The notes below the pieces were generated by a model. It was given only the letters and a program-made list of their open reading frames with translations, ran no database searches and was not told the origin of the DNA. Below are positions 7,166 through 32,468 of a stretch of 64,000 bases of DNA, piece after piece. Position 1 is the stretch's first letter. Every line of letters starts with the position of its first letter. The translations under genes and the position numbers were made by a program. The stretch comes from Fistulifera solaris (Eukaryota > Bacillariophyta > Bacillariophyceae > Naviculales > Stauroneidaceae): NCBI GenBank assembly GCA_030295235.1, contig AP026140.1, positions 496,001-560,000 of the forward strand, read 5' to 3'.

Positions 7166-7262
7166 TAATAGTTATTTCTCATGGAGAGGTTGTGCATTGT
7201 TTGAAATAGTTCATAGTACAGCGTATAAAACGAATCCAATAGAATAAAAAAACATCATTAAT

Positions 7263-8957: not shown

Positions 8958-8975
8958 GTTTGTATTATCGTTCAA

Positions 8976-10192
8976 GAAAGGACTGATGACTCGAAGAAAA
9001 AGATACCGGCGACTTTAACCACAACGCGACTAACGGCTGCGCTTCGACAATTGAAAAATAAAAAGATTATAACGTGAACGACCTTTAATAAACTCAAGGT
9101 CGTAACTATTCCCCATCAAAGCATTGAAATAATAATCATCGCTTTTTATCGCATCGCATCGACATGCCAAACGGCGGATCAACGACAAAGAGATGTTTGC
9201 AGCGCGACACCGACAACGGCAAGACGATGTGTGACATCATATTCATGTCTCACGACTAAATAATACTCCGTACAAGACTCCTCATCTATGGCGCCGTGCA
9301 AAGGTTAGCTGAAGCAAAAAAATACTCCGCGAATAAATAGATACACAAACCGCACACATGTGACACGTTGTAGTAAAAACAGTAGATAAGACATACATTT
9401 AAAGGCTATACTGAGGATTCTCAAACTGAGAAGGACTTAAGTGACACGAGGGAATGACGCATGACCCGACGCGCGCGCCGCAGTCGGTCTTCGGTCTTCA
9501 TCTTGAACATTGAAGAAGAAACGAAAACCTTAGTATCAAGTAAAGTGTAATTAGCCTACTCTTTGGAGTGTTTTCAAGAGTGATAAACACTTCTGGATGA
9601 TTTCTATGCGGTTATCTCTTTCGTTAAGTATCTTATGTGTTCTGTACGTGGAAGCTAAAAGAGCGATGACCCAATGAGCCGGAAAGAACAAAAGTGCTTC
9701 CTTACGGTCACTGAAGTATACGTATTCTCTACATTATGGCTTATTGAAAAATTTACTTCAAAAACCTTTCTCGTTAATGTTCGGCACTACATTTTATCCT
9801 TATACATAAGATTTAATATGGAAATGAAAGTTTCCAACTGAACAATGACGACAGCGGTGTCTACTGTTTAAGCCTTACAAGATAGACTATCATGTACGAT
9901 GTATTATCTAAGGATGTTCTTTCCTGCGCTCCACTGTCCTCTTCACAGTCCATTCTTAAAGTACTGTAGTCGAAAGTCGAATTGAGAACTGAAGAACTTG
10001 TTTGTTCTTTTCGGATGAGGCTGTTGGTTTGTTTGTACGACCGTGATACAGTAAGTGCTAGCTATCCTTCGCTTTCACGTTGATCGTTGCGCTGGTCGAA
10101 TAAATCTCTGGCAAATGAAATGAATGTTGCTTGGGCTTGAGCATTATTTGCTTCTCGCGTCCAGAATCTGTTGGCCTCATAAACAACCGAAG
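8976..10192. other. Gene-free region of about 1.2 kb
   Basis: AT-rich sequence upstream of both PAF1 and the TPR-like gene. It carries TACTCCGTAC at 9264-9273 and a related AATACTCCGC at 9321. No coherent coding frame, tRNA or repeat array is visible. Confidence 0.5.
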
Positions 10193-10962
10193 ATGAATTG
10201 CGTAACCGCGGCGGAGCTGAACAATTTAGGGGCTTTGCATTTGCAAGGCGGCCATCTACGGACGAGCCTTGATCTCTTTCGAGATGCTCTGAGCTTGACT
10301 TTGCTCGACCTTGAAGCAGAGCAACGCTCTTCTTGTTGCAATGATATAAGTGATGAATCAAGAACCGCTTCTCCGCAAACGAGTGATGAAGTAGCAGCTT
10401 GTAGCGCATCACCGAACCAAGCAGCATCCGCAAGTTCATGTACGGAAGAGGCAGATTGCCTGCAACCTTCGCCGTCCTCGACAGCATTCGTTCAGTCGCA
10501 AGCCATCAACGTCATTCCACTACCGAACGCTTACTCGCATGATCCGCTCGTGAATATGACGATCGTGAGTAGTATTGTGCTCTTTAATTTAGGAATTGTG
10601 TATCACCTCAAGGGTCTAGAAGGAACGAACGAAAGCTCGTCGTACCTCGTCAAGTCCTGCTCTCTTTACCAAAAGAGTCAAGTCCTTCTCGCGGACAGTG
10701 GCGTCCCGCTGAACTGCACCGGCAATCCAGTGATTGATATTCTATCCATGGCGATCAACAACAATTTGGCACAAGTCTTTTTGAATTGTCCATGTACGAT
10801 GATTCGCGACAGCACTTTGAGCAGCTAATTGCCTTTGCCGTGACCGTGGTACCAGCTCGATACGGTGACCTGGCCATTGGCAATCTGATAGATGAACAAA
10901 AATCCAAATTTCTTCTCAATGCTATGATCTTGCATGCGCCCAAACTGGCACCAGCGGCTTGA
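10193..10962 (+). CDS. TPR-like protein of a diatom family
   Basis: The N-terminus contains a tetratricopeptide-like helix pair (AAELNNLGALHLQGG, then SLDLFRDALSL). A Ser/Gln-rich linker leads to a second pair (SSIVLFNLGIVYHLKG) and MAINNNLAQVF. The expected continuation, ELSMYDDSRQHFEQLIAF up to FLLNAMILHAPKLAPAA and a stop at 10960, is in another frame. The break is in a run of five T at 10778-10782, and one extra T gives AQVFFELSMYDD. The alanine-rich C-terminal tail after a hydrophobic stretch resembles a TPR family I associate with diatoms. The function is unknown. I choose ATG 10193 (MNCVTAAELNN); an upstream ATG at 10124 is possible. Confidence 0.7.
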
Positions 10963-11209
10963 TCCATTAACGTTATATCTGCTTACATATTTTGTGCTAA
11001 CGGTGACAAACATCCGCTTTCTATTTCCTACTCTAAATACTAAACTTTTGATTAAAAACTTGCATCCTAGGCTATTAGACTCCTTTAATGTCGGAAGTTA
11101 CGAACAAGTAGTGATCACGGAGTAATAAGCAAAGTGCAAGTGCAGTTTACAAAGAATCCTATTAATATAGTTTGCTAAAACCAAAAGCAACAATCAAGCT
11201 GGATGACCT

Positions 11210-12862
11210 TTAGGCAGCCGCTGCGCTAGGGGCGCTGGACAGAGTCGAACTGACAGGCGCGGTGCTTCCTCCGGATGCACTCGAAGGAGATGTCGTGACC
11301 GTCGGTGCCGCCGTTCCAGCTGGAGCCGGAACCGTGCTACCCGATACAGGTGATGAAGTCACCGTCGGTGCCGCCGTTCCTGCGGGGGCCGGGACGGCGC
11401 TTACCGTCGCACTTGTAGGCACCGCCGTGACGGTTGGTGCAGTCGTTCCTGCTGGGGCTGGAACATCACTTCCTCCCGATGCACTTGAAGGCGAAGTTGT
11501 GACAGTGGGTGCCACAGTTCCTGCGGGGGCTGGAACGGTGCTTCCCATTGCACCTGAAGGAGACGTCGTGACAGTCGGCGCCACGGTTCCAGTTGGAGCT
11601 GGAACGGTACTGCCCGTAGCACCCGAGGGAGATGTCGTAACTGTCGGTGCGACCGTCCCTGTGGGAGCTGGAACGGTGCTGACCGTGGCACTCGAAGGAG
11701 ATGTCGTTACGGTTGGCGCAACCGTGACAGTCGGTGCCACCGTACCTGCTGGAGCCGGCACGTCGCTTACCGTCTCGCTTGAAGGCACCGCCGTGACGGT
11801 TGGTGCCTCTGTTCCGGTTGGGGCTGGTACAGTACTGCCTCCCACCACAGTTGGAGCAGGGCTGACGCTGGGTGAGGCGGTTACCGTCGGCGACGCAGAC
11901 ACTGTGGGTGCGCCCGTTGCATTAGTTCCAATGATGGTCGGTGCAAGTGTGCTCGAAATCGGCGAAGTCGTCACGGTGGGTGCGATTGTTCCTGCTCCAG
12001 TCGGAACCAACGATTCCGTAGGCGTGGTGATGGCCGGCTCTGTAGTGGGTGTAGCGGTACCACTTCTCGTCGGGCGAGCGCTTATACTGGGGGCAGGACT
12101 CACACTGGGCGAGGGACTTCCCGACGTGGTGTCACCGGCGGAAGGACCAATGGTAGGCGAATCCGTGGGGCTGCCTGGCAATACAGATGGCCCGGGAGAA
12201 CTCACGTCGGTTGTCGGGGAGGTCGGTGAAGCGGTTACGGAAGGCACAGTCGTGACAGGGGCAGCTGAGACTCGTCCCGACGTAGGCGCCCCAGTTTGGC
12301 CAACGAATGTGGGAGCGCTGGAAATTGTCGGTGCAAGCGAAGGAGTGGACGCTGGCGGCTCGCGAGGTGCGAAAACACTCAAAAATATAGACGAGTAGCT
12401 ACCTTCTGGCTTCGGCGTCCAATTGTCGGGGAACACCGAGAGAAAGTCTTTTACTGTGTCCGTGACCAATTTGGCGCTGACAGGCGAACGTGTGGGCGTA
12501 GTTTGCTGAGCTTGCGACTCGATCTCCGAATCAGGCTCGGGGTCGCGGTTGCCGCTGAAAATATTTGTAAAGATATTCAAATAAGTTCGAGTGCTCGTTT
12601 CTGGTACATCGGTATTCTTTTTAGTAGATACTGATGACTCTTCTTCACCAAAAACGGACCGAATATTGAGTACATTGAAGAGCCTACGCTCGTAAGACTC
12701 TGATTGCTGGGGTTGCGACGAGATAAGTGTCTTTCGACTTGATCGTACGCGGCCTTTCACGGCATCTTCCCGTTCGGGTCCTGTTTCTTGGCCGATGGCA
12801 ATTTGCGCCGCGACTCCAAACGTCGCGTGTAACGCGATGACCAGAATCGGCAGATTTCGCAT
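11210..12862 (-). CDS. Secreted Pro/Thr/Ser-rich repeat protein
   Basis: 550 residues. A signal peptide (MRNLPILVIALHATFGVAA) is followed by about 150 residues of mixed sequence. From about residue 170 to the end the protein is a mucin-like Ser/Thr/Pro/Ala/Val tract. The last 250 residues are imperfect repeats of about 22-25 residues built on VPAPxGTxAPTVTxSPS, ending with SAAAA. No Cys-rich or enzymatic domain is seen. Such Thr/Pro tracts are normally heavily O-glycosylated and occur in cell-wall or extracellular mucilage proteins; that role is inference. The codons show a matching DNA repeat. The start ATG at 12862 gives a clean signal peptide. Confidence 0.8.
   Translation of the reverse strand: MRNLPILVIALHATFGVAAQIAIGQETGPEREDAVKGRVRSSRKTLISSQPQQSESYERRLFNVLNIRSVFGEEESSVSTKKNTDVPETSTRTYLNIFTNIFSGNRDPEPDSEIESQAQQTTPTRSPVSAKLVTDTVKDFLSVFPDNWTPKPEGSYSSIFLSVFAPREPPASTPSLAPTISSAPTFVGQTGAPTSGRVSAAPVTTVPSVTASPTSPTTDVSSPGPSVLPGSPTDSPTIGPSAGDTTSGSPSPSVSPAPSISARPTRSGTATPTTEPAITTPTESLVPTGAGTIAPTVTTSPISSTLAPTIIGTNATGAPTVSASPTVTASPSVSPAPTVVGGSTVPAPTGTEAPTVTAVPSSETVSDVPAPAGTVAPTVTVAPTVTTSPSSATVSTVPAPTGTVAPTVTTSPSGATGSTVPAPTGTVAPTVTTSPSGAMGSTVPAPAGTVAPTVTTSPSSASGGSDVPAPAGTTAPTVTAVPTSATVSAVPAPAGTAAPTVTSSPVSGSTVPAPAGTAAPTVTTSPSSASGGSTAPVSSTLSSAPSAAAA
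11280..11860 (-). repeat. Degenerate tandem repeat, unit about 66-75 bp, inside the Pro/Thr/Ser-rich gene
   Basis: Successive copies of a GTGCCNCNGTTCC...GCTGGAAC block (read on the plus strand) recur about every 66-75 bp from 11300 to 11850. The repetition is in frame and keeps VPAPxGTxAPTVT in the protein. It also produces a long open frame on the opposite strand, which is an artefact. Confidence 0.75.
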
Positions 12863-13900
12863 GGAATATCGCTTTTGATTAGAATAGCAGATATGAGGTC
12901 TATGTTTATTGATTAAGAGTAATGAATCTGCCCATCACAAAGGGACGAATGAACAACCGCTTCGTTTGGTGAACGAGATAAAAGAAAAAACTTCAGAAGG
13001 CAAGGTTATCTTGAGTATTTAGGAGATTTTATGGTGTTTTCGAGATCTTTCAAGATGAACGGAAAGATTTTTACGTAAATACTACTAATTTTTGCTGATG
13101 GTGATACTCCGATGTACTAATTGCAATCAACCTTTAAAACTTTTTGATACACCAGTGTACGCGTCACGGCTGCTGACAAATTTCAAAAACAATAAGTCCA
13201 TAACTTGATACCTGATGGGCTGATGGGGAAATCAATCACGAACTTGGTTAGTCCCGAGCTTGTGCTGGTCGGTCGTCGGTCGCTGTTCTCTCGCTGGTCG
13301 TGGCCTCGGGAATCCGGAGATGATGAGTCATGAGTCTAGTGTCATTGTGGCACAATTCACCGGTACTGTACCTGGAACAGTAGTCTGACTCAGAGCTCAG
13401 AGCTCGGAGCTTCCGAAACTTACGGACGTTCCAGTTTTAGCACAGAAATAAAGTTCTACAATCTACTATAAAACAATAAAACACGTAGTAGGGATATTTA
13501 CTACTCTTAAAAAAAAAATAAAATAAAAATAAAACAGTGTTATTTCCTTGCTATAAAAGACACAAAGTCCAGTCACTTTTATTACTCAAATGTCTCCAGC
13601 CAATAAGTACAAATTACAAATTACTGGATCTGTAACCTATAAGGCCGTTTCTAACACGTAATAGTGACTGTGTGGACGGTGGACGCGGAATAATTTTAGG
13701 CCTCAGCAAAAGACAAAAGACCGTCATCGAACGACGATGGACGAATGGCTTCTGCCTTCTAAAGTTTAGAGTGTTTAGAAGATAGCCGTCGCAGCCTTCT
13801 GCATCCTGCATTCCGGCACGCGGTGGAAAAAATTACTCCGTGCTTCGCATGAAGCTGAGATTCGCCTGGTGAGCTTTCATTACTTTGCAACTAACCGACG
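12863..13900. other. Gene-free region of about 1 kb
   Basis: AT-rich, with an A-rich simple stretch at about 13508-13535 and TACTCCGT at 13834. I see no gene. It holds the promoters of the divergent secreted-protein and F-box/kelch genes. Confidence 0.5.
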
Positions 13901-15538
13901 ATGTCTGCATTGGTAGCTTTACCGGATGATGCGCTGCAGCAAATTGCGGCGTTTTTGCCACCCAAGGCTATTGCTCATTTTCTTTGCTGCAGCCGAAGCT
14001 TGCACAGCAAGTTCGATACTTCTGATCTTTTCTGGACTCGTCTTCTCCGTGAGCAATTTCCCCAAACAAACCTCGAAAAAATATGTTCTGTGACGAAAGA
14101 TCCGAAAGAGGCATTTTTGGTACAAGTGGGTGCACGTGATCTGAACGCGGTCAAATGGATTCGCCTGGAGCAAGGAGATACGTGGCCGTCTGATCGAGAA
14201 GGACACCTGTGTGCGAGAATGGGAAACTCCATTGTTATGACAGGTGGTTTTACAGACGATGATGATGTCTATGTCTTTGACTTATCGGCAGGTAATACGA
14301 GCAAGACCTTTGCTCGAATTAGACCTACCGTGGAGGCGCATCAAGTACAAGAATCAGCCGATCCTACTAGCAGCCCTCAACTAGCCGCTTCTCAATTAGC
14401 AATTCTCCGGCCTCTGTTTGTCTATGGGGCGTCTTTCACGGCTCTCGACTCAAATAGAGCAGTACGTTTCGGGGGTTTCTGTTCCGGTGGCTATTCCTCA
14501 GAGACCAGTCAGGTTGTGTTGCTCACGTTAAATGGTACAACCGCGTCGTGGCGAGTCGTTTCCTGTAAGCGGCAATCGGGTGGTGACCCGATGAGCCAAG
14601 ACTGGTCGCTTCGGTTGAGTCGAGCGTATCATACTGCGACTTTGCTATTTGATCGGTATTTGTTAATTCTTGGAGGTATGCAGAGAGGTGAATCCACTTG
14701 GGAACCGGCCATTCTCGACACACTGACATGGACCTGGCTAGATCAAGATATTTCTCCATCTGCAGCAACAGCTGTGCATCCATCGAATCGACATGGACAT
14801 TCGGTAGTTGTCGACCCGGTCCGTAATAGATTAGTGCTGTTCGGAGGTGGCAATGGGTCGGATTTGCTACGATCCGGTAGAGATAACACCGAAGTTTGGG
14901 AATGCCCACTGCCTTCGCTGCATGATGACCTCGGTATTTTTCTCAGCACAATGTGGAATTGCCTTCAAGAAGATCAGATAGCGACCATCCTTGGTCATGC
15001 AAATGGGGGAAATGGTGAGATGATGACTGGAGATGACGGTAAAGACTCCCGGCGTCTTACCGCTGTAGAAGCACTCTGTCTTGGTAGATGTCATTCCGCT
15101 TTTCGTGTGAGTCACGACAAGGTGATATTAACATTTGGATCAGGTCGACCATCTACCAATGGGATTCTGGGGTATGACTTGGCTGAGAATGTCTTTTGGA
15201 GGCCCAAGATATTGGGGAAACCTCCACTACCTCGGTTTACTTTCGCGTCGGTTTTTTTGGAAGAATACGGGTACGTCTTCATTCATGGTGGCTTCTCTAG
15301 TCAGTACGGATCTAGTATCGCGGATGGTTGCTTTCTTGACCTTGCTGGAAGTATTGATCGCGCTTGTTCACTAATGGGAGAAAACACTGATGCTCTACCA
15401 CATCCGACTCCAACGAATGCAACGGCGCTGCAGGAGCTAGAGTTTCTCTATTCTGATTCTCGGATCGGTGATCGGTCAAGATCACTGCTTCAATACCTTC
15501 AGGCGCTGGCTCAGGGGGGAATTTGTGGGCAGCGATAA
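13901..15538 (+). CDS. F-box protein with kelch-type repeats
   Basis: 545 residues, single exon. An F-box sits at residues about 5-50 (LPDDALQQIAAFLPPKAIAHFLCCSRSLH, then FWTRLLREQFP). It is followed by kelch-like blades with the usual hydrophobic-GG pattern and downstream W: GNSIVMTGGF, AVRFGGFCSGGY, RYLLILGGMQRGEST, NRLVLFGGGNGSD, and YVFIHGGFSSQYGSS. F-box/kelch proteins are substrate receptors of SCF ubiquitin ligases; the substrate here cannot be read from sequence. ATG 13901 directly precedes the F-box. The gene is intact and converges on the giant minus-strand gene, 135 bp away. Confidence 0.9.
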   Translation: MSALVALPDDALQQIAAFLPPKAIAHFLCCSRSLHSKFDTSDLFWTRLLREQFPQTNLEKICSVTKDPKEAFLVQVGARDLNAVKWIRLEQGDTWPSDREGHLCARMGNSIVMTGGFTDDDDVYVFDLSAGNTSKTFARIRPTVEAHQVQESADPTSSPQLAASQLAILRPLFVYGASFTALDSNRAVRFGGFCSGGYSSETSQVVLLTLNGTTASWRVVSCKRQSGGDPMSQDWSLRLSRAYHTATLLFDRYLLILGGMQRGESTWEPAILDTLTWTWLDQDISPSAATAVHPSNRHGHSVVVDPVRNRLVLFGGGNGSDLLRSGRDNTEVWECPLPSLHDDLGIFLSTMWNCLQEDQIATILGHANGGNGEMMTGDDGKDSRRLTAVEALCLGRCHSAFRVSHDKVILTFGSGRPSTNGILGYDLAENVFWRPKILGKPPLPRFTFASVFLEEYGYVFIHGGFSSQYGSSIADGCFLDLAGSIDRACSLMGENTDALPHPTPTNATALQELEFLYSDSRIGDRSRSLLQYLQALAQGGICGQR

Positions 15539-15673: not shown

Positions 15674-18600
15674 TTACGAGTTCGTGTTACTGTAGTCTTT
15701 CAAAAAGAATCTGCGGCTCTTAAGATCGTAAGGCCGTCTTGCTGGTGGGTCTGAACCACTTACGAAACCAACGAGATTGAGGGAATTGAACTTCCAAATG
15801 CTACCTTGTCGTCCAGAGGAACCACTGTCATCCCAAAGCTTCTGCATCTGCGTGCTCTCCTTGCACCACTCGCGTGGAACGCATCGCATAACGTCAACTT
15901 TCGGCTGTTGATCGGTCTTCGATCCGATAAAGCCTAAAGCGACAAACTCTTCTCCTGGTGGAACTGGTTCCCAAGCATAGAAATGGTTGTTACCGTGTGT
16001 CAGACTCCAGGCCAGGCGGAACCTGGCAGGATGGGGCAGATACTTGTTCAAAACATGCGGTAACCAGCTACTACCCCCAACCCAGCCGCTCGAAGTATCC
16101 GTAATCTCGAGACAGAGGCGTTCATTGCCGTCACGAAGCGGATTATCATACCCGTATCCAGCGAAGTGTCCTAGGCAAATTGCGGCTTTGTTTTGCTTGA
16201 AGCCGCCAGCTTGAATGGAAGGATTCCAAATTGAAATCTTGTCTCTGCTCATGCTTCCCTGGCTATTCCAAATCAAGTTGAATTTCGTAATCTTCTTCAC
16301 TTTTACTTTGATAGAGGCCAAAACAGGTTCTGGGATCACAACTTTCAGCGTGCCTGAATCCTCGGAAGGCATCGGTGGAAGAGGAACCCCTGCGTTGAAT
16401 GACATAGATGGGGCCATATCACTCTCGTCTTCGAAGCCAACGGCGGCCTTGAACTCCTCCAGATTGATGAATCCATCGCTGTCTTTGTCAAGTTCTTTCA
16501 TAAATCCGGCGACAAGCGCCGGGTCAAGTTTAAGACCCAGCCAATCCATACCTTTTCTCAAGTCTTCTTGGTTCAACAGACCATCCCGGTCTCGATCAAT
16601 TGCTGCAAACGCATCCCGCGGATACATTCCCCTCGATTTCAGCAAAGCAGTTATTCGCCCTGCAGCAATCTTGTAGTTAAGTAGATGGTGCTCATCGGCT
16701 GTGATGAAGACCTTCGACAGCGATGTGGTTTCTGGGGCAATTTCCTTGCGCCTTCTATTACTTCGTACTTCGCAGAAAAAGTTGTACCGTCTTTCTAAAT
16801 CGTTGTTCTGCAATGACCTGAGCAGAAGCGTCAATTCTCTTGGCCGGTAGTTGACTTGGCTATCAATAAAGCGGTAACAAGCCTGTGCCGTAGAATCCTG
16901 GAAGCTCTGTGCTGCTTCGTAACCATGTGTGGAATCTAGCGTCGTGCGTTCAGTTCGAAGAGATACGGCGGTGTCTCTTCCTGGGATAAGGGGAAGCATA
17001 GACTGCTGGTGAATAGCAGCTCTCATACACTCAGCTTCAAAAAGAGATAGCGCAACATAGAAGCGGCCTGCTTGCACTCTGTAGAACATCCGCTGTGTTA
17101 GGTAATGCTTGAGCTCGTCAAAAGTGATCGTGCGAGATTGCAAATCAGGTAGGTTTCCAAAAATTTGTCTCCGTCGTCACCGTCGACATCAACGTCGACA
17201 GCTCGAAGCACCTCCCGCAGCTCAGCTACTGAGATTGTCGCAGACGTTTCTAATTTGTCACCAGCTGACCCTAAAAAGGCTGTTTTCAACATCTTCTCCT
17301 GTTCGCGAGTGAGCGGTTTACCGACTGACGCAATTTCTTGCAGTGCACTTTTGGATGGGTAAAAATCCATTGTAACAATGACATTCTTGAGCCTTCGATG
17401 AGTTTTCGTACTCCACTGTTTGTTGTAGTAGTTGCGTGAAATCAGCATGTAGTCAGGGAACTCAAGGGAGACGCCTTTAGAAAATATGTAGTTTTTGACG
17501 GAAAATTCGGAAGCGGGGTAGAAGTACTTTTGAAAAGGCTTGACTTCATTACCGTCTGTCTTGGAGTTCACGTCTGCATTGTGAGCTAGCGACTCGATTT
17601 GCCAAGGAGTAGGCATTTCGTCATCTCTGGAGTATTTCTTCTTTTCGCCGATTCATTTACCACTTCTTCTTCCTCTTCTTCCTCTTCCTCTTCTTCTTCC
17701 TCCTCCTCTTCTTCTTCCTGTTCACATAGAGCATACAACAATGAGTTACATCTAGAGAAATTGATTCTTGGCACGTAATAATACAAACCTGTTCTTTCAA
17801 GACTTCTTCTTCCGCGACTTGTTCTTTCTGAAGCTCGGCGTCCTGATCTTCCTCTGCTGCTTCTGCCACAGAGGGCTCACCAAATTTTTGCTTCGCAAGC
17901 CCTTCCGAATTGACAAGAACCATCAAAATCTTATCAATGACAGCTTTGTCATAGTCAGACTTGATGAACTCCTTTCTTCGTAGAACAGTGTTACGCAGTT
18001 TTTCCGACAGGGGGGTTGGTATAGGAATACTGTTAGGAACGAGGAAGTCAAGTCTTTCGGTGAGAACATCCAAACACTTCTGGATACTGTCGATTCCAAT
18101 CAGTTTGGTTGCTGTCGATGATCCAACTGTTCCAGCTTGGACTACCGCTAAGATCGCGTCGAAATCTTCAGAAGAAAAGTTCGTTGTTTGAAGATCAAGT
18201 TCGAGATCTCCGTCAATGTCGTTTCCGGATTTGTTTGGTCCCCTATTGGCCAGAGCGGCAAACTCTTTGACGCGATGTGCGAATGCAAGCTGTGTCAATT
18301 CGCGGTAGCTAGTTGTCAACAAGCTATAACAACGCTTTCTCGAGACGTTGTCGATACTCTGGTGGCATAACATGCGAAACTGCATGTTTTCGCTTTTCAT
18401 TCCATTAACAGTTAACCACGCGGCGACATTAACGAGAAGCTGTTTGTTGCTAGTCTGAGAGACTAGCGCGTTGCTAGTTGGCCCAGTCGGTAATGGAGAA
18501 GCAATACCAAAGGGGTCGGAGGTTGCATTTGGGTAAGAGTGGACTCCATGGTTTCCGTGGACAACATTACTGCTGAGACGACGATACTGGTCGTCCACTA

Positions 18601-21600
18601 ATCTCATTACCTCAGGAATAATGAAAAGTTCAATGGTCTGACCTTTGCCGATACCGCGCATACGGAAAGCACCTTGAGCATAATCGCGGAAAGTCATATC
18701 TTTTCCAAGAGTGAGAGCGGCTCGCGCATCGATCGCTTGGTGAATATCCATTCCCGTTGTGTGAATTTGGTCGTAAAATGAAAATCGGCGGTGGGGAGGG
18801 ATTCCAGATTGGTTTAGTCTGACCACATTCATGCCGTTTCTCATCAAAATCATTTTGCGATCTTTGTGGTCGAGGAAAACAACACCATCGAATTCTGTTG
18901 GAAGCCCATTATTAAGCAAAAACTTCGCGACGTCGAAATTGCTCATGCCAGTCACGAGTGCTCCGCAGTCAAGCAGAACATGGAATGGAGGCCGTGCGGT
19001 TGCGATGTCAGTTAACAACTTTGCGACAGACCAGTTAGCGTCGAGCAAGCGGCTGCTCACGATTGATTCAGATGTAAGATAATCAATTATCTGACCATCA
19101 ACACCCTCATCATACTCGCATTGACCAAGTTCTTCTGGAAGTAAATCACTCGGTGTCCCGCTAAAGCCAACACGTTTGCCAAACAACATGTCGCCGCCCA
19201 GGTCCTGTCCAGATGCACTTATCTTGTCGTGATGATGTTCCATCGTCAGCGGGAACACAAAGGTGTGCAAATAATACTGGAGAACGCTTGGGATATTTTG
19301 AAGAAGTTTGTAAGTGACACTCATGTGCTGGTCGTCTTTTACGTCAAGAAGATGCAAAGGCCAAATATCATCGGCGCCTCTAGCGCCAATCCGTCCAACT
19401 GGCGCCTTGAAAAAATCTGCCTCTGGATCATCTTTGTTGCCGCTTTCGCCTTCACCTTCCCTGGGGCCCCGCACTTTCCCACCAGCCTCCTCGACCCAGG
19501 CCTTGTACTTGAGGGCTGCCGGTCGCTTGTGAAAAGGACCAAATTCAGAATCAAGCTGTTCTCGAAGAACTCCGATTACGTTTTCGAAATCAGAAAAACG
19601 CAAGCCTTCGTAGCGGTATGCCAAAATCGTCAATCCAATGACAATATCAGGGTGGGAAAATTGGCTTGCTCTGCTGGGGATGTCCTTTCCAACAAAGGGA
19701 ACAGCAGCGAGACGTCGCGCTAAGGAAACACTGGATTCCGTTTCTAGGGTCAATTTTAGATCGAGCTTTGACAGCAGCCCATAACTTACGCGGTTGATCT
19801 TGCTTAGAACGTGAGGCAGAAAGTTCCTCAGCAAGTCGTGGCTTAAATTCAACATTTTCATGTAGTCATCGTCGAGAGCAACATGAACAGCAGATGCGGC
19901 TTGGCGATCCTTTAACGGTCCGTTAACCATGTATGATATCAGATGTCTATCCTCGACCGTCGGAAGACGCTTGTGTCTGAGATAGAGAAGCTGCCACCTC
20001 GCCATGAGAGGTTTCAGTTCTCTATGATAAAAGGCCTTGTTCAACAAAACGAGGTGCGGAGTGTGCTGAAGATGCTTTTCAACAATTCCTTTCCGAATAA
20101 CAGCGGCAATTTCTTGCAAAATAGTTATGGCCTCTCTGCTGTCCTTGAAATCGACTGACATCTTTCCAACTGACGCATAAAATACCCCATCAATAAGATG
20201 CCAGAACAGGTCCCAACGAATTCCGATGCCCAGCTTCCCGCGCGAGTAATCGATAGGATCTTTGTGACCGATTGGCCAATTTAGTTCCGATTTCAAGGGG
20301 TGCAAGATCAAGTCCACTTCGTCTAAAAGTAAACAGCCACTTTTGAAAAGCTTCAGAATCTCGGTGCAATAATAAACATCCTGGGGCTCAACGTCGAATT
20401 CCACAGTCTCGACTTGATCACGGAAACGTCTGGCAATCGCCGAAAGAGAAAACGCCCCGAAGATTCCATTGTTTCGGGCTGCCCTTCTAGCAGCGCCAAA
20501 CTTCTTCTCCTCCAAAATCTTCATCATTTCGACAAACTTCAGCATAAAGGATTTAATACTAGTAGGTGTAGCACAGATGACAGCTTTGCTGTCTCGTGCT
20601 TTGCATAGCTTGAGGTAAAGGTCCCTTGTAATTTTCGTCCCGCGGCTGAAGCTGAAAGTGAATATGGGCTTCCTCACAACCGCTGCAGAATTTTTCTCGC
20701 ATCACACCCCGTGAAAAGTCAAGGAGTGCATGCGGAACAACCTGGGTGACCAAAGATTTACCATCAGCCAGAATGAGAGCCAGAAGCGGAGTAACAACGG
20801 TGGTCTTTCCAGCTCCCATGATCATTTGGTTGCACATCGATCGGCCGCTTTTCATTGCACCGATGAGTTTGTTTACCAGCAGAACTTGACTTTTTCGTAG
20901 CATTAACGAGTAAGTGAATTCAAATACAAGGTATCTTGGATCAAACTCGATAAAATTGCCATCGGGTGTAGGAGTCATAAAATACCTCTCATTCGAAATA
21001 TCAGCGGCTACTTTAGAGGATTGCAACTTGATTTCCTGGCTCATTCGTGATTTGGCGTTAGCATCTTTAGTGCCATTTATGCTGGAGAGAAGTTTATACA
21101 GCTTCGACAAACTGAGGCAAAGCAGATGGTGAGACAAAAAACTTGATAGGTTGAAAATCGGACTGTAATTCATACCTTGAAAGTGCACGGTGCGTTTGGG
21201 ATATTCTGATTGAGGTTAGCATCGCGACAACTGTCAAACTGGTGACTGTTTTGTAAGCGACAGGCGACATGTGCGGATTAAGTGATCGGATGTCATATTC
21301 AGAGTTTGTCGATAAGATTGAAGCAACCAGCAGTTCAAACCAGGGCACTGGTTCACGTTCGCCAACTTGTCCCAGACGAAATCTCAAGAAGTTAATTTCA
21401 TTGTGCACGTTGTCTGGCGAGGGCGTGTCGCTTCTTTCATCACTGGCGGCGATGGCGAGAGCGCGCTTCATCAGATTCCATAACGATTTCCTATCAAAGT
21501 GCATCGCTTGATTCAAAGATTTGATAAGCTTATTCAGCTGTTCCAAGGCCTTAGCCAGCCCAGCTGGGTTAGTGTGAAATGCGTCCACTTCAGCGGGCGT

Positions 21601-24600
21601 GAAGCCAATGAGCATAGGTGTCATTTCTGAGTTTGCTTTTTGTGCATATTTGAAAACGTCTGTCTGAACTCGTTGCATTGTAGCCTGAGAACAGTGCGTT
21701 TGCGATGCCCTCTCAGAGGATACGTCAAACGAGAGAGTGGACGACACCGGAGGCATACCGACTTGCATTCTCGACAGATAACAAACAAATTTTTCCAGTT
21801 GAATTGGTGCCAGCGGTTTCGATGCAAATGCTTGGAGTTGCTTGAACGGAATATTAACCGCAGCGCAGTTCTGAACATCCAAGTAAAACTTTTCTTGCGA
21901 ATAGTCAGATATGCGCGGTACAACCCACAACCGGTGTGAAGAAAATGATTCAGGTCGACTTAATATCATAGCGGAACGAGGTAATGATTCCGGGTAGACA
22001 CTTGTGTTCTTTATCATAGCCCGAACACCTTCCTGGTTTAGAAAAGTGTGCAATTCCCCAATCAGCCTGGTGACTGAGTCCTTGCCGGCAAACATCCCTT
22101 TCAGTTTACTCATTCCACTATCAGGCTGAAACTTTGGAATCGATGGATGCGATGCTACCGGCGGATTTTCGGCAAGAATTCTTAGAATTGACATCTCAGC
22201 GGAAAGCGTTTTGTAATCCGACGGCGGGATGAGTCTAAAAAGCATTCGGCCCCAATTATGTGGTCTATCAGCGGGATGAAGCTTGAACTTCACAGTGTTC
22301 GTAAGCAGGTCATAAAGGAGAGGAAAGCCATATCTAGATGATGCCATTTCCACCCCAGACGATACGGCATTATTTATGAACTCAAGAGCCTTTAGCCCTC
22401 CGTATGCTACATCGTCCTGAAGTCAACAAAGAAGGTCAACATTGGCAAAACATTGCAGCAGAATACTCTGTTCCAACAGACTTACCTCCTCTGGTCTACT
22501 ATACGCTGCCCCAAATAGCTTCGCCGATACCATTGTCTTCTTCGGATTTTCGATGATTGTAAAGTCCGCACCAAAGTCAAAATTTTCTACCAGCGGTGGC
22601 TTTTCTTTGCCCAATTGTACGGTGAGCGTCTTGTCTTTAGGCAATGACGAGAGGCTGGAAACCGCTCCCACAAAAGCCTTCCGATTAAGAAGCGTAAGCG
22701 AAAGTCGATCCTTACTTTCGGGTGTACAAAGCTGAAGAAGAAGCAACTCCTCTTCGGTTGTCAATCTACACGCCGAAGATACATATCCGTGTTTCTTCAC
22801 ATATGCCTCCATTTCCTCCGAGATGCTCCATGGACACTTCATTGTCGATTCCGAACCCAATCCTACCGTCACAACCGACAACTTTAACCTACAAGCATGA
22901 GCATCTGGGTGAAAGTCATTGCCAAGAAATTCAAGCTGGTTAAAGATTTGTTGCTAAAATCCTTAAAGCGTGAGCTGCATTTAGCCGTAAAGATTCAAGC
23001 AAGCAATTGATTAGGGACTCACCTCTTCTGCGTTCAGCTCTTCACTAACACATGACTCGACCATTTTGAACACCTCCGCATACGAACCGGTGATAAAGTA
23101 CATAAGCATCAAATAAAGAGAGGACGCCAGAGAAGGGGTGACAAGGAAAGACTGCGAATTGTGAATTGGATAAAGGTAGGACCGTACTTCCCCAATGTTG
23201 TTGTTCCAGTCTTTGTTGCGCCTGTCAAGAATGACTTGCACAGAAAGATGAGAGCCGTCTACATGGAGGCGCCGCGGTAAAGCACAGCTTGGCATCAAAA
23301 CGAAAAGATCATTGTCCGAATTTTGAAGAACGATATAATGAGCAATCGTACCAAGCAAACGCTCCGAGATTTCACGTGCTTCGGTCGATGTGGCTATGAA
23401 CAGACCGTCATAATCATTGCTGTAAATACGCTGCTCTACTTGCCCGTCAACCACTTCTTCAGTCTTGGCTTTGAATGAGAGATTTACTCGAGGTAGCTCA
23501 ATCAAATCGATGGAACCAGGATCGTGAGGGGTCTTTAATTCTTCTTTACTCCAAACAAGGACATGAGCAAGATTATCGAGTCGCGAGAGAAGCATGCCGA
23601 CTCGTTTCAACAATGAAGAAGGAGGCGCGGTAAGGATATTCAGTAGCGTGTGAGATGCTCGATTATTATCGAGTTGCTGAATTGAATGATCATATCCGAG
23701 CACAGGAATACGCTGGATGAGAGCTTCTGCGGCTGAATTACAGTAGCCAGTCTCGTCAAATTCGGAGCCCTTGGAAAGGATAATGCGTAATCTAGTCGAC
23801 GGCGTGTTTTCATCTATTGGTGGCTTTTCTACGTCATCCTCACTTCTTGTAGGCTCTTTCTCGTAGCCGATTATGTTGTCGTCTTCGCTTTGCCAAAAGT
23901 GATACTTCGCGACAAGTGCCGAAGGAAGTAAACCCGCTAGAAACCTGGGAGGAACGTAAGTCTGCAACCCCAACTCAGAATTCAATGCTCGAGTTACAAG
24001 TAGAGATGGTCCGGGGTCGACTGTAGTCATCGGAACACCCGCGGATAGGGATAAAATCCCGCCTACTCGGTCAGGATATGGCTCTCCCTTTACTTCATGC
24101 AGACACATAGAGATATTGGATGAGTATTCAAGGACACGCATGTGCCTCCTTCCATGCTCAACAACATTGAAAACAGCCAAGACAGGAGGATGCTGCCAAA
24201 CAACAACTTCCTTCAAAGTGTGACTACCTGGCGCCCCGTCAGTTGCTTTGTTGTTTTTCATCCAACCACTCAATACAACGAATGCTTCATCGGCTTGATT
24301 TTTCGGGCTCATGTACAAAGTCGTTTCCGGTAGAATTAGCGCCAACTTGTCCTTGAGTATATCAGCTATCCACATTTCATCCCTGTGAAGGTTATTTGGA
24401 AATTTCCGGGAGAGACGAGGGTCCAAAAATCCCTTTATGTCGTAGTAGTTTCGGCTATCAGGGCCCCAGGACAAAACGTCGTATCTTCGTCCCACAAGTC
24501 GCCACCAGTACCGATTGGTCGTGTGGACAACCTCAGCACATGCAACGTCCGAAGCATCTTTCAGAGCTGTGCTCCTTGTGGCTCTGAAGTCACGGTTTTC

Positions 24601-27600
24601 AATGATATGGGGATCAAGAAGTGACATTTTATGATTTTGCAAAGTGAAGTCACTGAGTTGGACATTCACTTCGATACCTACAGCCTTCGTCGTGACGTAG
24701 AGCATCCATTCTTCGTATGTTTGACCTTCTTTTGGGATACGGTAACTACCATCTCGTAAATTTTTATCTTCGGTGTCTGGGACAAAGCGACCATAACAAG
24801 TTTGGTGCTGAATACTCTGCCAATGGCGATTCTCCTCAGTGCTTTCTTCTCGTGTACCGGTACCTGTTGCAATGCGCACAACCGCTTCCATAGCTCGGTC
24901 ACCTTCTTTAGGATGCTCTCGAATGAAGCGTAGAATGTTGTATCGATGGGACTGGATACAATCGAAAATTTCTGATTGAGCTATCTGAATTGAAGGAGGT
25001 GGCTGTGTTGGGTTCGCTGTATCTTGCAAATCATCATAGACTTTACTGCTGAAGCGATGATTGATGGTAAGATAAACTTGCGACGACATGATGATCGACA
25101 CGGCTCTGTAGTCGAGATCCTCATAATCATAATTCTTGAAGAGGTACAATAGATGAGCGTGAGTGAGACATCCGGTGGTTACGTCTTTAGACCGTGATGG
25201 ATCAATCCAATACTCGAGAGTCGGAATAGCCTGAGCATCAAGAACGCCACGCAACTTCTTCAAAGCATTCTCCACCTTGATGTTGTCCAAGGATTCCAAC
25301 CCACGAGGCCGCGGCTGGCCGGGGATGCACTTTTTCAGAGCATACTTCAAGTACCCCTCGAGTCGAACAGCCAGTCGAATCGCATACAAAATCAATGGTC
25401 CACTTGCGCTCTTCTTAGTGTAACGTCCCACATCCATATCTAGCGCTCGTTCTAATATTTTGATGACACAACTTATCAGAACGTCAGGCGACTTGGCTAT
25501 TTCATTGAACAAAGTACCATGAGGTGTCGCAAGAAGAGCCTCAAGACGATCGATATCAATGACAGGAACCTCATTGATGAAGTCAGCGAAGTCTGCTGGT
25601 TTCCATCGTCCAGGTTCGAACAGTGCTGCATCCACAATGAGCTGCAGCGACTTAGTCTTCAAGGCCGACAATCTTGACGGATCTCCGTTCGCAAAAAAAT
25701 CTAAAATCAAAGGAATGCGTATGTACGGTACAGTTAAGAATTGCACGAACCGTTCAGAGTCAGACGGTGTTAGGACGTTGCCAAAAGTGGGAAGCTCTTT
25801 CGTTTCAAGATGTAACACATCATCCTCCGTAACCACTGAAACGGGCTTTGACCTGGACGAGTAGGATAAGATGGTGAGAACATTGTTAACAGCCCAATGA
25901 GCCAAATGCGACGCTCGACGCGTGCTTACCGCTTGGCCAAAAACTTCTCGCCGCAAGAATTAACAACTGTCGTGGCATCGGCGGATGATAATCGCGATCG
26001 TTCGATCTTCGACTTTGCTGAGAAAAGGGCGAGAAATCCTTTGAAGGCCGAAGATTTTTTCGTAGGCTCTTGTTGCGCAATTCGCTCAACGAACTGCTGG
26101 TCGTGACCTCGAAAAGCAGTGACATGGTAGGAGAACAACGGGTTTTCTTTCTCTTTCTCATTTCTCTTTACTTGCCAATGAAGAGTAGCATCAGATGGAA
26201 GCCATGTGTGTGTTTCCGGAACGTCCGGAGTCTGATCTTTGCCTGATACAGCGTGCTTGAAATGGAAAACTATATCCCGGAAATACTCGAACTCGGGCAG
26301 GACCTCGATCAGCGACCCATTTGAACCCCCAATCAGTCGAGCAGCATGGTTTGTCATTTCTTCGTCAGTGCGTGGATGAGGGCGCTGCATCGCCAACTGA
26401 ATAGACAGCTGATCTATCAAAGCCACATCACCCTTCATGGGGGAAAGGCTTTTGTCAAAATTAAAAATAGTATTACGGAAGGTACCATCGCGTCTCATAC
26501 TCAAGTTCCTCAGATAATCTAAACACTGGTATCGAAGCGAACAAACATTCGGATCGTAAATGGGAAGATTTGATCCCAGTGTATCGTACGCTCCAGCTTC
26601 AATTGCAAAGGGCTCGGTAGGACCCTCACATAGACCCGAATAATGCAAGGCAAAAGTACTGGGATCGTCCACAGCCACTGCCCGGCAGATGGCGTCGGCG
26701 ACACAAGCGGCTGCAGCAAAAGCGGTGGAACGGATGGCGATCAATCCTCTGGATTGCTGGACGCATGCGGTGGCCGCCGAATATATTCTGCAAAGTCTTC
26801 GGATGAGAAAAAGCAAATTTAACTGAGTTTCTCGGCGCATTTCACTTTTTCGCCAGAAGCAAAACTTAGGATCCAAGTTGGGCATGGGCAACACCGTGGT
26901 CAGCGCATGCTGAGCAGCCGACGCTGCGAAGGCGGGAGCATTTTTATCAGGCTTCGTTGCTGAAGAAGCAAACTACATGCGTCTGCAACACGTTGCAAGT
27001 AGGAACCAGCAGTTGCATAATCTTTGGCTACAGGGGGAAGGTGCTCATCCGTCAATACTGCTGGAATCAAGATAGGATCAGGTCGAGGGTCTCCCATCAA
27101 ACGCTTGACAACTTCCTCATAATTGTCCCTTCGTAAACGACCAAAGAGCGGAAATGCAGCAGAGCCAGCTCCAGTGCGCATCGAGACAATTTTGCCCTTA
27201 GAGAAGTCGTCGGTCATGGCAGCCGCAGTCAACCCGTGACTGTACTGATCCATTGGTTTTGCAGACGAAAAGTTAATCTTTTTCAACAGCTTGTCTAAAA
27301 GATCCCACGTATCAGACAGCGACGCACCAAGACTTCCGTCTCCAACAGTATTGGGATGAATTGTCGATGCAAAGTTTGCGATGTTTCTTCCTGCCAGCTT
27401 CAAGATTCGGGTATCTTCTGGATCCATGGAAGAGGGAGGAGCATGCTCAATTTCACCATAGGCAAGTTGAACGGCAGCGTTCATCAAAAGCAGGGTAGCA
27501 TATTTGGAGCTGCTAGTACCGGTTGCGGGAGAGCTCGTCAACGCTAGTCTCGCCAACGGATGGTACGACTGCGCCGATATTTCGTCCGGAACTTCCAAGT

Positions 27601-29402
27601 ATTCCGAGGGACCCTGATCCAAGTTGGAGAGTAGAGGACGCGAGTTCAAGGCCGGCAAAAGCTTGGTGTACAAGAAAGCCGCGTTGTTCTTATGACTCGG
27701 ATAAACTTGCATGCGAAACAATAGAGTCCAGAAAGTAGAATCCATAATACGAACACTCGGGATGTCCCAAATGGTCATGGCAAGCTGTTTCAATTCACGA
27801 CCAGTCTCGGGATCAAAGCTAGCTGGATGGTATTGCAGACCATCACGACCCGTGTTGCAAACGGTGAAACTCCAGCGGTTGTTTCCGCAGTTTCGAATGA
27901 TGTAAAGACACAAGTACGTGTAATCGGGCTGCTGCCAACCACCCGGTAACACGAGCTGTTGGTTGTCTTGGACCTGCTCCAAAAACGGCACAAAGACGTT
28001 GATGAAATTCATAAAAAGCCCGTCCAAAGCAGCCCCGGAAGCACCCGCCGAGTGCGGAAGAAGACTGATCAGCTTAATACACGCTTCACAAGCCATGTGG
28101 TTGTTGTGTAAGAATGCGATCGGATTCTTCCCCGCCCGCTTCTGAGCGGTCATGGCACACACATGACTGACAAAACTCAAAGCCTTGGAAAGTTGCTGAT
28201 AATTCGCGGATCGGTCCGCCAATTTTTCTTTCGGTACCGGCTTTTGCTGAATGTACGTGTTCAGATTCATCAAGGCCCAGAACGGTGGAACACGAAAGAT
28301 CGGAGCGAAGGTGCGTTCCGGCAACTTGTTGCTTCCCACCAAGTATTCGTACGGATTGAACGAAGCCATCGTCATATCGACTTCTCCGCTCGTCGTTGAC
28401 GACGACAAATGAAAACCACTCGTCCCCAAACCCGCCGTCGTGTCCGACACACGCGCCTTGCGCGATTCTTCTCGTTCTTTGCGCATTTGTTCCTTTTGAC
28501 GAGCTTCTTCTTGTTCGCGCAAGCGTCGTGCCTTGGCTTCAGCGTCCGGTGCGATCGCCAAAGACTGTCCGGTGCCCGCAAAGCTACTGACACTCGACAC
28601 GGCCGTCGCCGCGGGAGTCCGGGGGAGCGGATACTTGGTCGTATCTTCCGTCGGTGCTTTCGCCGGCGTCGTCATGCTCGGTGTTTTGGCGACAACGGGG
28701 GTACCCGTCGACTTGATCGACGACGTCAAAGGCGAACTGGCTCGACTCCCCGCCGGTGTCGTCGTTTTGCTACTACTCGGCGATGCAATGCCCAGGCGTG
28801 CCAAAGCCGCCTCCGCCGAAGATGGAGCCGCCGGTGAGTTTGACTTGGGGGTATGGCTGACGGGGGTGGCGACCGAGTTCTGCGAACCACTGAACGTACT
28901 AGAAGGAGTCGTCATCGCGGTAGGGGTAGACACTTGTGGTGGACCGGGAAAGGACATTCCGGACGTGGTGGTGGGTGCCGGCATACTCGACAAACCGAGG
29001 TTCGTCGAGCCAGACAAGTTGTTCGAAGGAGCATTCAATCCTTCCAAACCAGCAAAAGGGTCTTCTGGTTCGTAGCGAGGTTGCGGCATGGTAAAGGATC
29101 CTGTAGGAGCAAAGGATACCGGCGGCTGCTGCTGAGCTCGTTGCGGATGTACTTGCGGCACTGCGGAGGGGAACGAAGCTTGCTGCATACGCTGCTGCAT
29201 GTTGGGAGGCACAAAAGCCGGTGTCACCGGAGTCACGTAGGTCGGAGGAAACCATCCTTCCTTGTTGTTGTAGGATCCCCACCACCAGGCCCCCCTCCTG
29301 ATTAGGCTTGGCAAGAATGGTAGCACCCGGCGGGAAGGAGAGTTGCGACTGGCGCGGATCACCTTGAAACAGGTGTTTGGAGACGTAGTGCGCGGGCTGC
29401 AT
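15674..29402 (-). CDS. Giant DUF3638/DUF3645 ATPase-like protein with SH3, EF-hand and Vps62-like domains
   Basis: One gene of about 4,400 codons assembled from collinear minus-strand blocks. Domain order: SH3 (ATG 29402 to about 29200, ending WWWGSYNNKEGWFPPTYV); Pro/Ser/Gln linker; a large helical region; DUF3638 with LGNDFHPDAHACRLKL and Walker-A-like MIMGAGKTTVVTPLLALILADG (about 20770-20825); RKPIFTFSFSRGTK and ATPTSIKSFMLKFVEMM; Walker-B-like LLLDEVDLILHPLKSELNWPIG (about 20270-20330); a poly-Glu tract; YSRDDEMPTPW; two canonical EF-hands (DRDRDGLLNQED about 16562-16597, DKDSDGFINLEE about 16455-16488); and a Vps62/DUF946-like end (ISIWNPS, FRLAWSL, GEEFVALGFIGS). GT-AG introns fit at 25853-25929, 22954-23024, 22417-22485, 21113-21175 and 17718-17788. 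Single-base breaks lie near 29290, 20693, 17636 and 17161. The join near 26930-26990 is uncertain (53-nt intron or frameshift). Family function is unknown; the motifs suggest a SecA- or SF2-like ATPase. Confidence 0.82.
17657..17717 (-). repeat. GAA/GAG trinucleotide tract encoding poly-glutamate
   Basis: An almost pure (GAR)n tract on the minus strand just after the intron acceptor at 17718. Read in the frame that joins LKEQ to VVNESAKRR it encodes about 19 consecutive glutamates. A GAA-rich exon start of this kind can also act as a splicing enhancer. Confidence 0.85.
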
Positions 29403-30054: not shown

Positions 30055-32468
30055 ATGCAAACAACACTCCAACCCATCGAAGATGAAGTATTAGTGCCGT
30101 TACAGCCGGATGAAGAAACGGAAGATGGAAGGGTCCGCAACCGGGAAGCGATTGCGAAAATACGGGATATTTGGATTTACAGTAAAGTGCGGGCCCGACA
30201 AGAGGAATTTACGCAATATCGTAAGGTGCGTGTGCGTATTATAGGAACGCGAACAATGAAAAATGGCTACCTCGTAGTTGTGTGATATCTTCTTTCCTAC
30301 AATCCTTTACACTCTTTATACTCAATCGCTTTTCACTACACACAGGCACTTGTTTTTACCGGCACCTGGAATGTCAATGCCAAAGGCAAAGAAGAACCCC
30401 TCGATGAATGGTTGTGCGCCGATTGGGCCACGCAGGGATTGCCGGACTTGGTCGCCGTCGGTTTTCAAGAAATTGTCGATCTCAATGCCGTCAATGTCGC
30501 CGTCGATAACAAAACCCAACAACGTTCACAAGTTTGGACGGAACGTTTGAATGCCACGCTGAATCAACACGCGAATCAACCGGAGCGTCGGTATGTACTT
30601 GTGGCACAAAAAAGTATGGTCGGATTGTTGATTTGTGTCTTTGTGCGATTTCCGCATTACCCCAAAGTCCAGTACGTTCAAACGAGTCAAGTGGGAGTCG
30701 GTGTCATGGGTATGATGGGCAACAAGGGAGGTGTCAGTGTCCGGTTGCAATTTTACGATTCGTCCTTGTGCTTTGTGTGCAGTCATTTGGCCGCCCATCG
30801 TGAAAATGTCACCGGTCGGAATGCCGATTTTGCCAATGTCTTTTCCAAAACGGTCTTCGATGTCGGCGAAGCCGCCATTCGCGAAGTCATTCGGTCCGGA
30901 TCGTTGTCGCACTTTGCCAGTCAATCCACGACAGTCGGCTTGGCCGATCATGATCATACATTCTGGTTGGGTGATCTCAATTATCGAATTGATGAATCCA
31001 TGCCCACGGAACAAATATTAAAATTGTCGGAAACGTGTCAAAGTTCGCGCCATGTACCACCCGAGTTGCGTCAATTGGATCAATTGAATATGGAACGGTC
31101 CGCCGGTCGGGTCTTTGCCGGATTTCAAGAAGGGGTCTTGCACTTTGCTCCGACGTACAAGTATCAACCGGGCACCGATATGTACGAACAACGTCCCGAA
31201 AAGAAATTACGAGCGCCAGCCTGGTGTGATCGCATTTTGTGGATGTCGCAACAAGCCGAACACGTCCAGCAGTTGACCTATTCCAGAAGTGAACGACCCA
31301 ATTGTTCCGATCATAAACCCGTGTACAGTTCCCTGCAATTGACCGTCAAAGATGTTATTCAAGAAAAACGGGAAGCCATTTATGCCGAATTGAATGCCTT
31401 ATTGAGTCGGTATGAGAATCCGCAAACACTTCCGGTCATTGAATTGGATCAAGTGGCGTTGGACTTTGGACCCATTCGTTACCAGGAACGCAAAACGTTG
31501 TCAATTCGTATCACAAACATTGGGAGTGTCGTGGCCATTTTTCGGTTCGTTCCCAAAACTGATGAGGTACGTCAGTCATTCTTGCTTTGTAGCCGGTGGA
31601 TGCCGCATTTCTGACCTCTCGGTGACAGGTCGGTATCTGCAAACGGTGGCTTTCGGTCAAACCCGCATTTGGTATGTTGGTGCCCGGTGATCCACCTTTG
31701 ACGGTGAATTTCACCATTACGATTGACAGCTACACCGCCCAATTACTCAATTCGGGACGCGAAGTTCTGGATGATATCGTGATTTTGCGTTTGGAAGATG
31801 GTCGTGATTATTATATCACGATCAAAGCATCGTTTGCGCGATCGTGTTTTGGCATGGCAGCCGATGAGCTCGTCATGTATTCCGATCCGATCCGTAGTAT
31901 TCCCATTGATCCCCTGGAACGGGCCAAAAGATTGACCCGACCAACACGAGTACCGCGTTATGTATTCCCAAAGAACTTTGGCGCTGCATTGATGCCATTT
32001 ACCAAAAAGGTTTGGCGGAACCTCATCTCTTTGTCGAATCGGGCATCCCCGAAGAAACGGCCGCTATTCGCGAATGTCTCGACACCGGAACGGCCTTTGG
32101 GCGTTATTCCATCCACTCCTATGCCGACACGTTGGTATCATTCCTTTCCAGTCTTTTCTTCTCCGGTCGTACCGACCAAATTATTTCCGACGGTCGAAAT
32201 TGATTCGCAAACGATCCAATCGAGTGCCCGACGACTGATTGAAGATCTTCCTCCGATTCATTACAATATCTTTGTGTACGTGATTTCCTTTTTCCGTCAC
32301 GTGTTGGCGTTTCGGGATCGCAACTTGTTGACGGCCGCCAAGGTGGCGCGGGTGTGCGTGAACAGTTTGGCGCCCGGTCGGGATTTGGATAATACCGCGG
32401 CGTCCTTACAAAAACGCACGGGCATGCAGTTGATTGTCTTGCATCTGTTGGAGACGAGTAGTATTTGA
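30055..32468 (+). CDS. OCRL/INPP5B-type inositol polyphosphate 5-phosphatase with ASH and RhoGAP-like domains
   Basis: The 5-phosphatase core has all family motifs: TGTWNVNAK, VGFQEIVDL, MMGNKGGVSVR, CSHLAAHRENV, FWLGDLNYRID, APAWCDRILW and NCSDHKPVYS. It removes the 5-phosphate from PI(4,5)P2 and related lipids. An ASH domain follows (LDFGPIRYQERKTLSIRITN), then a RhoGAP-like domain (IPKELWRCIDAIYQKG, DTLVSFLSSL, LIEDLPPIHY). That is the OCRL layout, including a possibly inactive GAP. Introns fit at 30226-30345 and 31567-31628. Within the RhoGAP part the frame changes near 31962 (one G missing: RYGIPKELW) and in TTTT at 32154-32157 (one T extra: SSLSSPVVPTKLFP), after which the frame returns. 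ATG 30055 gives a short N-terminus without a PH domain. Confidence 0.92.

Follow-up and report, generated by a model that had tools for sequence, protein, structure and literature searches.

The 64,000-nucleotide stretch of the Fistulifera solaris genome analysed here (contig AP026140.1, C19:496001-560000 in a searched genome of 51.7 Mb and 61 contigs; hereafter the window) carries what is very probably a single giant gene on its minus strand. It runs from an ATG at 29402 to a stop codon at 15676-15674 (15674..29402). All coordinates below are window positions, and all features of the gene are on the minus strand. The gene model was predicted from the genomic sequence alone, with introns placed by GT-AG borders and in-frame joining. 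We confirmed the collinear open reading frame (ORF) blocks from 29402 to 15674, and six predicted GT-AG introns join in frame, of 53 (26924..26976), 77 (25853..25929), 69 (22954..23022), 69 (22417..22485), 64 (21112..21175) and 71 nucleotides (17718..17788); for one of the six, an alternative acceptor lies 18 nucleotides further on. The 53-nucleotide intron is the weakest: the two homeologous copies of the gene differ at 6 of its 53 sites with no gap, and the stretch 26976-26924 may be a plain frame break instead. The blocks join without a stop from 29287 to 20689 (2,755 amino acids) and from 20686 to 17661 (985 amino acids), and the full read-through is 4,435 positions long, four of which are X and mark the frame breaks left in the window gene (near 29295, 20690, 17650 and 17162). 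The breaks near 29295 and 17162 are in the window copy only and are absent from the homeolog. An exon stretch after the motor described below (17661..17717) holds most of an 18-Glu run and is followed by a frame break common to both homeologs. The read-through, the in-frame introns and the purifying selection described next agree with the initial annotation, in which the collinear blocks made one protein of about 4,400 residues.

F. solaris is allodiploid and has two homoeologous chromosome sets, according to passages in PMC13276009 and PMC5935921. The homeolog of the giant gene was found on C20, with 92% identity over a 16.3-kb alignment. The ratio of nonsynonymous to synonymous substitution rates (dN/dS) between the two copies is 0.036 over 4,366 of the 4,390 codons, the first 36 codons of the SH3 domain being excluded. 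Block by block the ratio stays low, from 0.013 to 0.124, with 0.034 in the motor and 0.124 in the N-terminal linker (Ser/Pro/Ala/Thr-rich, 28300..29227). The longer coding indels between the copies, 11 in number, are multiples of three, and all of them are located in this linker. Another eight coding indels are of a single base, and each breaks one copy only (two the window copy and six the homeolog, judged from the ORFs). They lie mostly in or beside homopolymers by eye and fit assembly errors. An extra single-base gap is found at the stop codon, and none of the five intron indels is a multiple of three. These results indicate strong purifying selection on both homeologs and a giant protein that is kept in function in both copies. 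Given the selection pattern and the Pfam E values reported below, a chance origin of the gene or of its domains is unlikely. DUF3638, DUF3645 and Vps62 were found only in this homeolog pair in an exon-by-exon search of the genome, in which counts are lower bounds.

Pfam searches of the window pieces listed matches at E values up to 1, and curated cut-offs were applied. DUF3638 (PF12340) was found in two pieces at 20516..20939, with a frame break near 20690 (E = 1.9e-15, 57.3 bits against a cut-off of 31), and DUF3645 (PF12359) at 19628..19720 (E = 2.2e-13, 49.7 bits against a cut-off of 25). Motif I, GAGKTT (20799..20816), and motif II, DEVD (20312..20323), are 164 residues apart when measured across the frame break, as against about 165 in the initial annotation. 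Motif III, GFSGT (19154..19168), and motif VI, QGAFRMRG (18653..18676), were assigned by motif and alignment, and the DUF3645 match falls between motifs II and III. Among the aligned relatives that cover them, the residues of motif I (GxGK(T/S), 7 of 7), motif II (DE(V/A)D, 7 of 7) and motif VI (6 of 6) are kept. The alignment also shows an LRxxQ-like motif, (S/T)GT, a D.G(A/G) stretch, QxxxRxR in 6 of 6 sequences, and HTTG.D in 4 of the 6 sequences that reach that region. The distance from motif II to motif III is 385 residues in the window and 290-411 in 6 of the 7 DUF3638 family sequences (L010 ends too early), compared with 162-179 in SecA (18 of 20), 26-33 in RecG (13 of 15) and 36 in PriA, the last in 3 of 15 sequences with a looser pattern and fitted by 1 of 15 with a stricter one. 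Motifs V and VI are 29-31 residues apart in the family, 30 in RecG and 36 in SecA. The second motor half fits superfamily 2 (SF2) by motif and spacing only.

The first motor half was compared as a profile, N-core, with PDB structures and with profiles of known motors. SecA came first in the PDB search (E = 8.8e-5), followed by MDA5, PriA and XPB. Up to an E value of 10, 52 of the 58 rows are superfamily 1 (SF1) or SF2 motors by molecule name (22 SecA, 12 MDA5, 5 PriA and 13 others) and 6 are not; the three rows at 0.001 or better are all SecA. With a profile of the whole motor, 21 of the 23 rows are SF1/SF2, the best being SecA (E = 0.0027). The hhalign scores of N-core are 64.7 with SecA, 66.9 with PriA and 45.5 with RecG, compared with 17.6 for the AAA protein FtsH, at most 18.5 for reversed profiles and 33.7 for the best of 30 column shuffles of SecA. 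Accepted pairs score 70.4 (SecA-RecG), 39.0 (SecA-PriA) and 211.8 (RecG-PriA), and pairs with FtsH 28 to 35. Measured against these known pairs, the relation of the first half to SF2 is at about the SecA-RecG level. By profile, then, the first motor half is related to SF2 motors, and in all likelihood the protein contains an SF2-type motor. The earlier suggestion of a SecA- or SF2-type motor thus largely stands, on the profile matches of the first half to SecA, PriA, MDA5 and, more weakly, RecG, and on the conservation of motifs I, II and VI. Its SecA-like points would be the DEVD form, a match that continues to motif II and a wide separation of motif II from motif III. SecA_DEAD is missing from the Pfam matches of the window pieces (E up to 1), and ResIII appears faintly in the window's own piece (E = 0.12). 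Pfam DEAD or ResIII gives a sub-threshold match in four of five distinct bacterial relatives (in L020 in a fragment only, not in the full ORF), and neither was found in L021 or L026.

The motor is flanked by other putative domains. The initial annotation also listed an SH3 domain, EF-hands and a Vps62-like end beside DUF3638 and DUF3645. EF-hand_7 was matched with E = 3.8e-13 at 16442..16618, downstream of the motor, with two canonical 12-residue loops that are paired. The loop pattern occurs twice in the protein, and at least once in only 3 of 500 shuffles. The SH3 domain (29228..29390) crosses the window-specific frame break near 29295, and SH3_2 in the window (E = 4.7e-4, 20.2 bits) is under the cut-off of 21.8, whereas the homeolog, in which the domain is in one frame, reaches 22.3 bits. 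The Vps62 match (PF06101, 15791..16312; E = 7.3e-10, 38.2 bits against a cut-off of 22.1) is partial, covering positions 28-185 of 541 (158 of 541). 'Vps62' matches in VPS13-type proteins are described in a passage of PMC7613979 as predicted beta-tripods and the Vps62 link as a spurious alignment, so that the segment here is perhaps of beta-tripod type. The beta-tripod signature DxG(S/T)Gx3D given in an excerpt of PMC8624791 is absent from the protein in its strict form and occurs once in a relaxed form. No chorein/VPS13 domain was found in any block at E up to 1. Between the linker and the motor lies an N-terminal arm (21000..28300) with no Pfam domain over cut-off, the second part of which is common to L021 (blastp from residue 1686 on). 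None of the 19-residue hydropathy windows reaches 1.8 and five reach 1.6, and the giant protein is predicted to be soluble because none reaches 1.8. The membrane association first proposed is therefore not supported, both on hydropathy and on the spurious Vps62 link (a passage of PMC7613979). Calcium control of the protein and Pro-rich partners for the SH3 domain are plausible from these domain assignments.

We then considered relatives in other genomes. In L011/L021 (PABI01000099.1, filed as an Anaerolineaceae metagenome-assembled genome), a 3,315-amino-acid ORF shows 39% identity over 1,110 amino acids and is collinear with the read-through in four blocks, from residue 1686 to 3769. This contig is probably eukaryotic contamination that was misbinned. 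L010 (JAGYJO010000129.1, 'Bacterium isolate M30B43') was deposited as bacterial, and among 74 genomes of its phylum DUF3638 matches were found in 7, over cut-off in 2. Several of the ORFs are giant. One genome (G014) has two with DUF3638 matches, of 2,037 (reaching the contig end) and 3,940 amino acids; weak DUF3638 matches occur in ORFs of 3,540 and 3,802 amino acids in G017 and G027; and the giant bacterial ORF in L024 matches read-through residues 2588-3491 (E = 1e-37). We infer a bacterial origin of these giants, since their ORFs are intron-free and, for L025, an AbiEii gene is adjoining. L017-L019, with weak DUF3638 matches, look like other SF2 helicases by motif reading, two of them like RecG. 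A DNA pattern of DUF3645 matched genome contigs at five places, but only two of these code for relatives. Scans of viral contigs found no relative, and plasmids and phages gave no match; four proteins compared with NCBIfam yielded nothing useful.

Two further observations concern bacterial genomes. In L025, the 3,540-amino-acid ORF at 3513-14132 with a weak DUF3638 match also matches OTU protease in its N-terminal region, under the threshold (E = 0.063). Nine loci in the phylum of G001 (L047-L055, in G029, G075, G072, G043, G040, G068, G035, G071 and G030) have ORFs of 2,276 to 7,197 amino acids with SecA_DEAD over cut-off, the 7,197-amino-acid ORF only just so, and SecA-sized ORFs are found in the same genomes. 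These giant SecA_DEAD ORFs were considered as a bridge to the DUF3638 family and rejected: they match the family no better than ordinary SecA does.

Taken together, the evidence leads us to propose, with roughly even confidence, that the protein is a soluble, calcium-regulated giant ATPase that threads a polymer, most likely a polypeptide. Two RecA-like halves would bind ATP between motifs I/II and III/VI, ATP would close the cleft, and its opening and closing would move the polymer chain. The large insertion between motifs II and III, including the DUF3645 stretch, would grip the chain; SecA carries its polypeptide clamp between the same two motifs. The polymer would more likely be a polypeptide than a nucleic acid, because of the position of the insertion and because no nucleic-acid-binding domain is over cut-off. 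The long N-terminal arm, the SH3 domain and the Vps62/beta-tripod end may hold partners or substrates, and calcium on the EF-hands downstream of the motor may tune its activity or partner binding. The parts of this proposal differ in strength: that the protein is an active ATPase is likely, calcium regulation is evenly balanced, and a polypeptide substrate is a tentative choice, somewhat short of even.

Several results weigh against this proposal. PriA scores as high as SecA with N-core, so the SecA link is not exclusive. The profile of the second half found no SF2 structure in the PDB; its five matches up to E = 10 are all Dps/ferritin-like, the best at 0.18. With hhalign, the second half has no significant match to SecA or RecG, although over this part the known pair SecA-RecG reaches 39.4. 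The insertion that follows motif II is not similar to the SecA segment between motifs II and III (hhalign E = 0.73). The single window sequence found no PDB structure and no relative in genome contigs, and both AlphaFold models are poor, with mean predicted local distance difference test (pLDDT) scores of 38.7 (relative L011) and 41.3. In L015 and L016, which are the most distant of the relatives, motifs V and III have drifted. DUF3638 is under cut-off in 5 of the 7 matched genomes, and in the full ORF of L026 it is not matched at E values up to 1, though a match was first listed under cut-off. Finally, both homeologs carry the frame breaks near 20690 and 17650, each flanked by the same sequence in the two copies, and the former is inside the DUF3638 core. 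A systematic base-calling error beside A-runs is a simpler view of these two breaks than programmed frameshifting, and in L021 the reading frame runs uninterrupted past the first break. A very small intron at 20690 was also considered and ruled out, because L011 aligns there and leaves no space for one.

Among other explanations, the one that survives best, though we consider it unlikely, takes the protein for an SF2 helicase acting on nucleic acid, or an ATPase that senses RNA (PriA, RecG or MDA5 type), enlarged by a long insertion. The N-core score with PriA (66.9) is slightly higher than that with SecA (64.7), the PDB search also found MDA5, PriA and XPB, and L018 and L019, both with sub-threshold DUF3638 matches, are RecG-like by motif (a reading, not a search result). 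On the other hand, the long distance between motifs II and III is SecA-like and far from the values of RecG and PriA, the hhalign match with SecA continues to motif II over 124 columns compared with 73 for PriA, and no nucleic-acid-binding domain is over the Pfam cut-off in the window pieces. It is improbable that the protein is a scaffold, in which the motor core is a nucleotide-dependent switch or inactive and the binding domains do the work. The very long arm without a Pfam domain over cut-off would suit a scaffold, as would SH3, EF-hands and Vps62 as binding domains; however, the residues of motifs I, II and VI are kept in eukaryote-like and bacterial relatives alike, and selection constrains the motor no less than the protein as a whole (0.034 versus 0.036). 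Two or more genes (e.g., one for the motor and another for the EF-hands and Vps62) or a pseudogene could be suspected from the four frame breaks, two of them shared, and from the lack of an EF-hand or Vps62 match in the 3,315 amino acids of L021, though its contig ends there, but this is very unlikely given the 18 or so nucleotides that, in the gene model, lie between the Glu run and the next frame used, the low dN/dS in every block and copy-specific single-base indels that fit assembly errors.

If the proposed threading ATPase is correct, the DUF3638/DUF3645 family would join the SF2/SecA-type motors, and such a placement would open the role of these giant proteins to direct testing. Were the substrate a polypeptide, the motor would give eukaryotes a way of threading proteins that is distinct from the AAA+ and Hsp70 systems. 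A broader and rather doubtful idea is that DUF3638/DUF3645 proteins form a second, cytosolic SecA-like polypeptide-threading lineage in eukaryotes and in bacteria that have giant proteins, with a clamp of their own replacing the SecA one, of which the diatom form would be calcium-switched and might be a non-AAA unfoldase. A link to ubiquitin is a lead only, from the sub-threshold OTU match in L025 and from a passage of PMC3482391 on amoeba-symbiont effectors, among whose reported domains are ubiquitin-related and SecA-like ones. Knockouts that hit both homoeologues have been reported in F. solaris (an excerpt of PMC13276009), and with two copies of the giant gene found in the genome, the question is therefore testable in this diatom.

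Other features were observed in the window and the genome. At 11210-12934 lies an ORF of low-complexity Thr/Ser/Pro/Ala/Val repeats whose start, judged by eye, resembles a signal peptide; it differs in length between the homeologs (574 and 564 amino acids). The segment 30060-36290 aligns in reverse to the homeologous contig and its flanks align forward, which points to an inversion between homeologs, one edge of which is close to the giant gene's 5′ end. At 31626-32468, part of an ORF reads differently from the homeolog, as if by two compensating frame errors; it adjoins what we take to be an inositol-phosphatase gene (OCRL-like). The silicon transporter family has 23 matches in the genome (best E = 3.5e-222), several on pairing contigs, e.g., C15/C16 and C23/C24; of 14 control genomes, a single one gave a match, which was under the cut-off. 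An Rfam search of the window gave no match.

The comparison with known systems begins with the literature. In the open-access literature (subscription papers being outside the scope), no mechanistic study of DUF3638/DUF3645 was found, and Pfam/InterPro accessions were not found there, in line with the initial statement that this domain combination has no described function. Among the papers listed in searches on SecA-like families, nothing specific turned up, and the same holds for SecA in Dependentiae. The passages of PMC12615304, PMC5423893, PMC6237848 and PMC6627653 that mention DUF3638, and in one case also DUF3645, give no mechanism, and a passage of PMC12615304 describes the Pfam family as widely distributed among eukaryotic proteins with an undefined mechanism. 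The diatom protein resembles SecA in the N-core profile match, the DEVD motif II, the long distance between motifs II and III and an (S/T)GT-type motif III. It differs from SecA in that this distance is 290-411 rather than 162-179 residues and the segments are dissimilar, in the lack of a SecA_DEAD match, in a motif VI that is written otherwise and in its giant size. PriA, RecG, MDA5 and XPB share the N-core profile match, but the distance between motifs II and III is short in RecG (26-33) and PriA (36 in 3 of 15). Plant VPS13M1/M2 also have Pfam 'Vps62' domains, predicted there as beta-tripods (a passage of PMC7613979), whereas the diatom protein has no VPS13/chorein domain at E up to 1. The Amoebophilus effectors, from a bacterium living inside a eukaryote, are alike by description, as a passage of PMC3482391 speaks of 'SecA-like helicase-related domains'. 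Finally, the DUF3638/DUF3645 proteins share both domains over cut-off and in the same order, and the diatom protein is best regarded as a new variant of this known family without characterised function, to which SH3, EF-hands and Vps62 have been added.

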